From Dialister succinatiphilus YIT 11850 (GTDB taxonomy: Bacteria > Bacillota > Negativicutes > Veillonellales > Dialisteraceae): DNA of 64,000 bases. Location: assembly GCF_000242435.1 (NCBI RefSeq), contig NZ_JH591188.1:555210-619209 (forward strand). Direction: 5' to 3'. The notes beneath the pieces are model-generated. The model was given only the letters and a program-made list of their open reading frames with translations, was not told where the DNA came from and did no database searches. Numbering within the stretch: position 1 is the first letter of the stretch; every line of letters starts with the position of its first letter. Below, piece after piece: positions 27,256 to 56,562 of this stretch. The position numbers and the translations under genes were made by a program.

Positions 27256-27364
27256 AATAGTGGGCTGGTGAGTTAGTGGACTAGTGGTCCCCAGCCCCAA
27301 TCCTCACCAGCTCACCAGCTCCCTAGCCCACTAGTCCACTAGTTCACTAGTTCACTAATTTATC
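27256..27364. repeat. CTAG octamer array (inverted-repeat form)
   Basis: A left arm of CTAGTG-type units, a centre reading CCAGCCCCAATCCTC, then seven consecutive 8-bp units of CACCAG/CACTAG type. It has the same design as 12059-12172 and lies just before the antiporter promoter. Confidence 0.78.
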
Positions 27365-30071: not shown

Positions 30072-30836
30072 ATGAGTTCCTACGCATTCATTACAGGGGC
30101 CACCAGTGGTATCGGCCTCGCCAGTGCCAAAGCGCTGGCCGCCAAGGGGTATGGACTGGCTTTGGCTGCCAGAAATAAAGAAAAGCTGGAAGAGGTAAAA
30201 AAAGAAATCGAAGGGGCCATGGCTGTGCCGGTTGCCTGCTTTGAGCTGGATGTGAGGGATGCCGATGCCATCCGTGAGGTGACTTCCCGCTGCCTTAGCG
30301 AACTGGGAGCTCCCCGCATTCTTCTGAATGATGCCGGCCTGGCCAGGGGACTGGAACCTTACGGGGAAACAAAGGAAGAAGATATTCTTCAGATGATTGA
30401 TACCAATATCAAAGGTCTCTTTCTGATGACCCGCGCCTTCCTTCCGGCCATGCTGGAAAAGAATGAGGGCCATATCATCAACCTGGGCTCCACCGCCGGC
30501 CTCTATGCCTATGCAGGGGCAGCAGTGTACTGCGCCACTAAGGCAGCGGTGAAAACGTTCAGCGACGGTGTCCGCATCGATGTCATAGACAGTGATATCA
30601 AGGTGACCACCATCCAGCCGGGCATTGTGGAGACCCCTTTCAGCGAAGTCCGTTTCCATGGCGATAAGGAAAGGGCAGCCCGGGTGTATGAAGGCGTAGA
30701 TGCGCTGCAGGCAGAGGATATTGCCAATATTATTGCCTTCGTGGCGGACCAGCCCAAACGGGTGCAGATCAGTGATGTGGTGATCATGGCCAACCAGCAG
30801 GCTACGGGATTCATGGTAAGCAAGAAGGGGAAATAG
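30072..30836 (+). CDS. Short-chain dehydrogenase/reductase (YdfG-like)
   Basis: NAD(P)-dependent oxidoreductase of 254 residues. Cofactor loop GATSGIG (about 9-15) and an Arg at AARNKEK suggest NADP. Catalytic residues are Ser in NLGSTAG and YCATKAA (Tyr-x3-Lys). The structural motif usually reading NNAG is NDAG here (about residue 94), a conservative change. The overall pattern, including DVRDADAIREV and IQPGIVETPFSEVRFHGD, is that of YdfG-type 3-hydroxy acid/serine dehydrogenases. AAGGAGGA precedes the ATG. A 59-bp repeat array follows. Confidence 0.9.
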   Translation: MSSYAFITGATSGIGLASAKALAAKGYGLALAARNKEKLEEVKKEIEGAMAVPVACFELDVRDADAIREVTSRCLSELGAPRILLNDAGLARGLEPYGETKEEDILQMIDTNIKGLFLMTRAFLPAMLEKNEGHIINLGSTAGLYAYAGAAVYCATKAAVKTFSDGVRIDVIDSDIKVTTIQPGIVETPFSEVRFHGDKERAARVYEGVDALQAEDIANIIAFVADQPKRVQISDVVIMANQQATGFMVSKKGK

Positions 30837-31013
30837 TATCCTGTCGGTATGAGTTGCGTTCGTGTCATGCCGGATGGGAAACCTTTCGCAAGCAGTTTCC
30901 TGTCGGTGTGAAACACCATAGTGCCATGTCGTACAGGAAACTTTTCGCCAATAGTTTCCTGTCGGTAAGAAACACCAAAGCGTCAAGCCGGACAGGAAAC
31001 TTTCAAAAAACAT
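30837..31013. repeat. 59-bp tandem repeat array, three units
   Basis: Units begin at 30837, 30896 and 30955, exactly 59 bp apart. Each starts with T(T/A)TCCTGTCGGT and contains near its end CCGGACAGGAAAC or a variant, the reverse complement of the start, so each unit can fold into a stem-loop. The same repeat occurs at 56350-56565 and as a fragment near 59617. Confidence 0.88.
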
Positions 31014-31042
31014 TTGCTTTTTCCCATCCGCTCTTGTATAAT
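31014..31042 (+). promoter_or_regulatory. Promoter of rpsF-ssb-rpsR
   Basis: TTGCTT, 17 nt, TATAAT, directly after the 59-bp array. Confidence 0.7.
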
Positions 31043-34000: not shown

Positions 34001-34023
34001 TCCCGCTAACATTGACTTCGACT

Positions 34024-34088
34024 GGTTCACTAGTCCACTAGTCCACTAGTCTACTAGCTCACTAGTTCACTAGTCCACCAGCTCACTA
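34024..34088. repeat. CTAG octamer array, eight units
   Basis: Eight near-perfect 8-bp units of the form NNCACTAG (variants CTACTAG, CACCAG, CACTAA) in one orientation, just before the terminator and heat-shock promoter. Confidence 0.82.
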
Positions 34089-39904: not shown

Positions 39905-40252
39905 TTTTGAGAGTAGGGAATGTGGGGCGCCTACGGCGCGGTCGGGATCGCGGTCGGGAGTGGGGCGCCTTTTAATTTATTGAAGTCGCCAGTATGGATA
40001 AAACAGCTTTAGTGGACTAGTGAGCTGGTGGGCTAGTAAAAACCATACAACCGCCCTTACGGGCGAGGGAAAACCATATAACCGCGCCTGCGGCGCGAGG
40101 AAATGCCCCCCTTGGTGGCTGGCGCTACCCGCTTTCTAGGGAAGGGGGCTCTTGCTCTTCGTCCTGCAGCACTGGTGACATAAAACCAAATCCCGTAACG
40201 CAGATTTCATAAGCATTGCCCGCAGGGCAATCCACCACCCTCTGAACCCTGA
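39905..40252. repeat. Composite intergenic repeat region
   Basis: No gene. It contains GGGCGCCTACGGCGC near 39923; a CTAG-type array at 40010-40037; two tandem units of AAACCATAnAACCG with GC palindromes (CGCCC-TTAC-GGGCG and CGCGCC-TGC-GGCGCG); then a module (about 40100-40252) with GGGGGCTCTTGCTCTTCGTC, GCAGCACTGGTGAC and AAATCCCGTAACGCAG. The module closely matches 48860-48990. Confidence 0.65.
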
Positions 40253-56317: not shown

Positions 56318-56349
56318 ATTGGCTGAAACAGGCTTCCGGCTGCGGCAGA

Positions 56350-56562
56350 TGATAGAAGCCACAGGCCCGATGAGAAACCTTTCATGAAAAGTTTCTTGCG
56401 TTGGTGAACAGCAGAAGTGCCAAGCCGAGCGGGAAACCATTTGGGAAGAGATTCCTGCCGCAGTGAATAGCAGCGGTGCCAGGCCGGGCAGAAAACTACC
56501 TAGGAACTGTTTCCTTCCGCAATGAATCACAGAAGCGTCATGCCCGGTAGAAACCATTTTCC
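56350..56562. repeat. 59-bp tandem repeat array, about 3.5 units
   Basis: Units start at 56391, 56450 and 56509, again exactly 59 bp apart, after the tail of an earlier unit (56350-56390). Each begins G(T/A)TTC(C/T)T and contains GTGCCAnGCCG(A/G)GC(G/A)G near the end. It is the same family as 30837-31013, with more divergence between units. Confidence 0.85.

Follow-up and report, generated by a model that had tools for sequence, protein, structure and literature searches.

The window considered here is a stretch of 64,000 nucleotides (G000:C2:555210-619209) from the 2.5-Mb genome (G000) of a gut-dwelling Dialister, in which copies of a 59-bp repeat are found between an SDR gene and the rpsF promoter, upstream of der, and between gpsA and rsmD (Table 1). 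A first-pass annotation, made from the window alone, had reported three units spaced by 59 bp before rpsF and the recurrence of this period at three positions before der, and both arrays were recovered as described, the second with an additional decayed unit. It had also placed a fragment at about 59622, where a copy does exist, although this is an entire degenerate unit rather than a fragment. The left end of this unit is the 3' end of gpsA, and it is probably the remnant of an array deletion which fused the unit to the end of this gene.

Table 1. Positions of the 59-bp repeat units and associated features within the window.
Feature	Position	Strand	Basis or remark
rpsF array, three palindromic 47-bp units (30836-30882, 30895-30941, 30954-31000)	30836-31000	+	sequence, profile score
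First rpsF-array linker, 12 bp, CTTTCGCAAGCA (consensus YNTTYGCRAAYA)	30883-30894	+	
Second rpsF-array linker, 12 bp, TTTTCGCCAATA	30942-30953	+	
Likely rpsF promoter, TTGCTT / 17 bp / TATAAT, ~14 bp past the array	31014-31042	+	by-eye reading
Decayed fourth unit, left end of der array	56332-56378	+	score -3.2, in 59-bp phase
der array, three degenerate units starting at 56391, 56450 and 56509	56391-56555	+	upstream of der promoter
Lone chimeric degenerate unit between gpsA and rsmD, overlapping the gpsA stop codon	59593-59639	+	

A 47-column profile was derived from 73 distinct units, of which the window contributed two. On this profile, the three rpsF units and the three non-decayed der units score 33.8-60.5 and the gpsA-rsmD unit 27.4, while the best unrelated site of the window scores 4.1 and the maximum across 20 order-1 Markov windows is 6.0. 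The predicted rpsF promoter is conserved in a sister Dialister species (G005) and in a third Dialister (G004), and was absent from the output of a consensus promoter scan; at der, the promoter TTGACA lies ~8 bp past the array. The window also holds 8-bp tandem repeats (CTCACTAG / CACTAGTC) at 27303-27357 and 34021-34088, and two copies of a 31-bp direct repeat (AAAACCATACAACCGCCCCTACGGCGCGAGGG) at 40039-40100.

Each unit is made up of a near-palindromic 47-bp core, of approximate consensus GTTTCCTGTCGNGATGAAACNCAATGGTGCCATGCCGGACAGGAAAC and with the ends GTTTCC/GGAAAC, and of a conserved 12-bp linker. The core has 47 bp in 105 of the 136 units collected from two genomes, 48 bp in 26 and 46 bp in five, and its two arms are versions of a single half-site, one of them with an additional base; the core is palindromic because each arm carries this same half-site. 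The linker measures exactly 12 bp in 71 of the 77 internal linkers of the two genomes, and only half a linker is present at the edges of the arrays. As the units are joined via the 12-bp linker, the resulting structure is a near-palindrome of 59-60 bp repeated head to tail, in arrays of one to nine units, of which only one in 53 has units in mixed orientation.

The spacing noticed in the window is conserved across the family, given that 77 of the 83 within-array intervals measure 57-61 bp (59 bp in 57 cases, 60 bp in 16, and 57, 58 or 61 bp in four); a further interval of 117 bp spans an undetected unit, and the sister genome has five longer ones (139-164 bp) which contain a different inserted repeat. 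Mean identity to the consensus is 75%, and indels are rare given such divergence. Regular spacing and a conserved palindromic junction could also be expected of a CRISPR-like array, with a junction palindrome of ~26 bp as the repeat and ~33 bp as the spacer, but the arrays are many and tiny, single units begin and finish inside the "repeat", and the "spacers" have one common consensus, which refutes this reading and leaves it a negligible probability.

As the first-pass annotation had anticipated, the family extends beyond the window, with 73 units at 29 loci of G000 and 63 units at 24 loci of one sister species in a PWM scan, or 136 units and 53 loci in the two genomes. Exact matches to GTTTCC-N32-37-GGAAAC number 56 in G000, against three for the reversed control. 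Among 380 Negativicutes genomes (102 genera), the unit-junction pattern was found only in G000 and G005, and a sensitive search with the consensus dimer returned 93 matches in G005 and none at E<=0.01 in four other Dialister genomes. A phage origin was rejected, given that the lone IMG/VR contig with the junction pattern, itself phage-like, lacks the unit and matched through a chance terminator-like palindrome.

Another dispersed repeat, GTCATTTCGA-N-GAGAAATCTC, with 40 matches in G000, 43 in G005, two in G004 and none in 11 other relatives, adjoins or interrupts the 59-bp arrays, always in the same register, at L003, L073, L074, L075, L079, L084, L088, L099, L100 and L101, where it seems to stand in for a half-unit. 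On a larger scale, a stretch of 763 kb (G000:C1:244943-1008444) is free of any 59-bp unit (p=0.0002, or 0.02 after merging clustered loci) and is centred near the GC-skew switch at ~0.66 Mb, with dnaA at 1.213 Mb.

The arrays are intergenic. At the 46 loci with both flanks called, the neighbouring genes are in tandem in 32 cases, divergent in eight and convergent in six, a mix close to that of the window's own intergenic spaces (20, six and four, respectively); the gene calls come from a simple codon-bias script, and a few ORFs which cover arrays are likely spurious. The first-pass annotation had also observed that arrays end right at a strong promoter, and this applies to rpsF and der, where ~8-14 bp separate the array from the -35 box, but not as a general rule, given the convergent loci and the background-like mix. 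In G000, tRNA genes have an array upstream in three cases and a T-box leader in one, and several other arrays abut promoters by eye, all of which would suit operators adjusting the activity of the strong promoters next to them (those of rpsF, der, tRNA and T-box). On the other hand, positions between convergent genes and downstream of genes are represented too, in background-like proportions, and sister Dialister genomes do without the arrays, notably G004 at rpsF, so that a role as promoter-proximal operators appears very unlikely.

The first-pass annotation had further proposed that selection acts on a stem formed within each unit, and the units do fold better than their dinucleotide shuffles (mean z -2.5). 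Some of them are very good hairpins, such as the unit at L004:1652-1697 (G000:C4:6854-6899), a near-perfect hairpin of ~21-22 bp (-38.8 kcal/mol) unlike other family members. This folding is what would be expected if the units were selected as RNA-level hairpins, for instance to terminate transcription, to mark a processing site or to stabilise the RNA. However, stem-compensating changes were looked for and none were found: in the 16-pair stem of 36 aligned units, 78.4% of the positions are paired, against 78.6% when the partners are shuffled among units, and no stem pair is among the strongest column couplings of 73 ungapped 47-mers. The mean folding energy of the real units (-14.4 kcal/mol) is in fact slightly poorer than that of column-shuffled (-15.0) or half-swapped (-15.3) units, with 58 and 59 of 60 randomisations, respectively, folding at least as well as the real ones. 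The orientation of the units is unrelated to transcription (12 co-oriented and 18 opposed, p=0.36), with no strand- or transcription-linked arrangement observed, many arrays are placed by eye between a terminator and a promoter, and no array tested had a match in Rfam. Selection on the stem is not borne out, and hairpins acting at the RNA level are very improbable.

The other part of the same proposal, that the repeat is under constraint rather than simple drift, was upheld. The positions T7, T15-G16-A17, C22, C31-A32, G34 and C36-G37 of the core are conserved at 88-97%, while neighbouring positions (12 and 19, for instance) come close to random. When the positions conserved in one genome were tested on the same-array units of the other, they differed at a rate of 0.098 against 0.340, and in the reverse test at 0.197 against 0.351; in orthologous pairs, the fixed positions differ at 0.094 and their neighbours at 0.341, with the positions picked on the same data. 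Effect sizes are preferred here over p-values because the unit pairs are not independent, and Fisher p-values overstate the significance. Detection through a motif profile favours the units which keep the motif, but the linkers were not used in finding the units and escape this bias, and their T3, G6 and C7 are conserved at 93-94%. What is conserved consists of fixed bases, found in each half-site as well as within the linker, and not of the pairing between the arms.

The common ancestor of the two Dialister species already carried the family, and units have since been gained, lost and homogenised in situ. At ~15 loci of G000 an array is also present at the orthologous place in G005 or in Dialister sp. 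UBA1703. The comparison of copy number between species revealed differences at all three loci of the window: at rpsF, G000 has three units and G005 four, while the site is empty in G004, with a short spacer only (the matched regions are 97% and 93% identical to G000, respectively); at der, whose product Der is 97% identical to that of UBA1703, the window has four units (one decayed) and UBA1703 five by eye; and between gpsA and rsmD a single unit stands against an array of ~4 units in UBA1703 (sister contig L031). The number of tandem units varies among related genomes in the manner of a MIRU-like VNTR, here between species. The claim that the arrays do not reflect fresh slippage is correct in that their positions are old, but not for the number of units, which still shifts at most orthologous loci.

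At L007/L081, the units are similar within each species and different between the species, and were therefore homogenised in place; the L007 array, near a cluster of five tRNA genes, also includes 314 N (L007:1668-1981). Between loci, identity exceeds 90% in only two of 8,850 unit pairs from non-orthologous loci, and there is thus almost no sign of recent copying from one locus to another.

Among the known systems, the REP/BIME sequences are also extragenic palindromes, which occur ~100 times in a genome, alone or in clusters, and are species-specific, and they are mobilised by the RAYT (TnpA-REP) transposase (PMC2817692). The Dialister repeat is likewise extragenic, palindromic, of high copy number, single or clustered, and lineage-specific. 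However, the REP unit has 20-40 bp and, at one of its ends, the tetranucleotide GTAG or CGTC (PMC3733652), while the Dialister unit has 59 bp with its own conserved 12-bp linker, and its 47-bp core ends in GTTTCC/GGAAAC. In addition, REP clusters alternate in orientation, unlike the head-to-tail Dialister units. A search for the RAYT/Y1 transposase (PF01797) found none in G000 or G005, but did find it in G003, G013, G014 and five control genomes; mobilisation by RAYT was rejected, and formal membership of the REP class fails because the gene is absent from both genomes.

The RU-1, RU-2 and RU-3 elements, MITE-like intergenic units of 103-168 bp, are comparable in that they too are small, intergenic and non-coding, carry inverted repeats and lack a transposase of their own (PMC2759123), but the Dialister units have 59 bp, are organised in arrays, and show hardly any sign of having been copied between loci of late. 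Of the features of MITEs, the dyad ends are present, and the flanks of single units show no clear target-site duplication by eye.

The MIRU-VNTRs of Mycobacterium are tandem units at dozens of intergenic loci, with variable copy number, and are not known to be near-perfect palindromes. The Dialister repeat resembles them in its unit length, its dozens of intergenic tandem loci and its variable copy number, and differs in its dyad symmetry and conserved junction motif. Among the papers searched, there was no published account of repeats in Dialister or of this family, which is apparently an undescribed, RAYT-less, palindromic and tandem family that is both REP/BIME- and MIRU-like.

Given the constraint on individual bases, the reading which we favour, by a modest measure of confidence, is that of an old, lineage-specific family of extragenic repeats which are putative dyad recognition sites on duplex DNA, probably bound by a protein, and which turn over locally. 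The repeat would have spread before the split of the two Dialister species. Its conserved positions would be the contacts of a dyad-symmetric DNA-binding protein, and each array would thus offer it several docking sites side by side on the duplex; the candidates for the binder are the enzyme by which the repeat was formerly spread and a nucleoid or regulatory protein specific to the lineage. The arrays themselves expand, shrink and become homogenised in place.

The main rival to these recognition sites is the possibility that the units are functionless relics of a once-mobile, non-autonomous MITE- or REP-like element, in which the motif was the target of a lost transposase and the arrays now drift and slip. 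The background-like intergenic placement, the insertion at an rpsF site that is empty in G004, the restriction to one lineage, the absence of the RAYT/Y1 transposase from G000 and G005 and the existence of decayed copies are all consistent with it, and the non-uniform conservation could itself be an outcome of past selection for mobility. However, since the species split the neighbours of the fixed positions have accumulated more changes than the fixed positions themselves, a result cross-validated between the genomes, and the intervals seldom fall outside 57-61 bp, which is unexpected for unselected relics, so that this origin is considered possible, if doubtful.

If the arrays do serve as recognition sites, a lineage-specific chromosomal protein occupying dozens of dispersed dyad arrays, whose size differs between close relatives, might constitute a young and fast-evolving chromosome-organising or global regulatory system of just two Dialister species, although this is rather unlikely. 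In a broader sense, symmetric "hairpin" repeats can be conserved at the level of the DNA motif even though no change preserves the stem, a point that calls for caution when RNA structures are read by eye. In practice, the arrays should serve strain typing as an intergenic copy-number marker.
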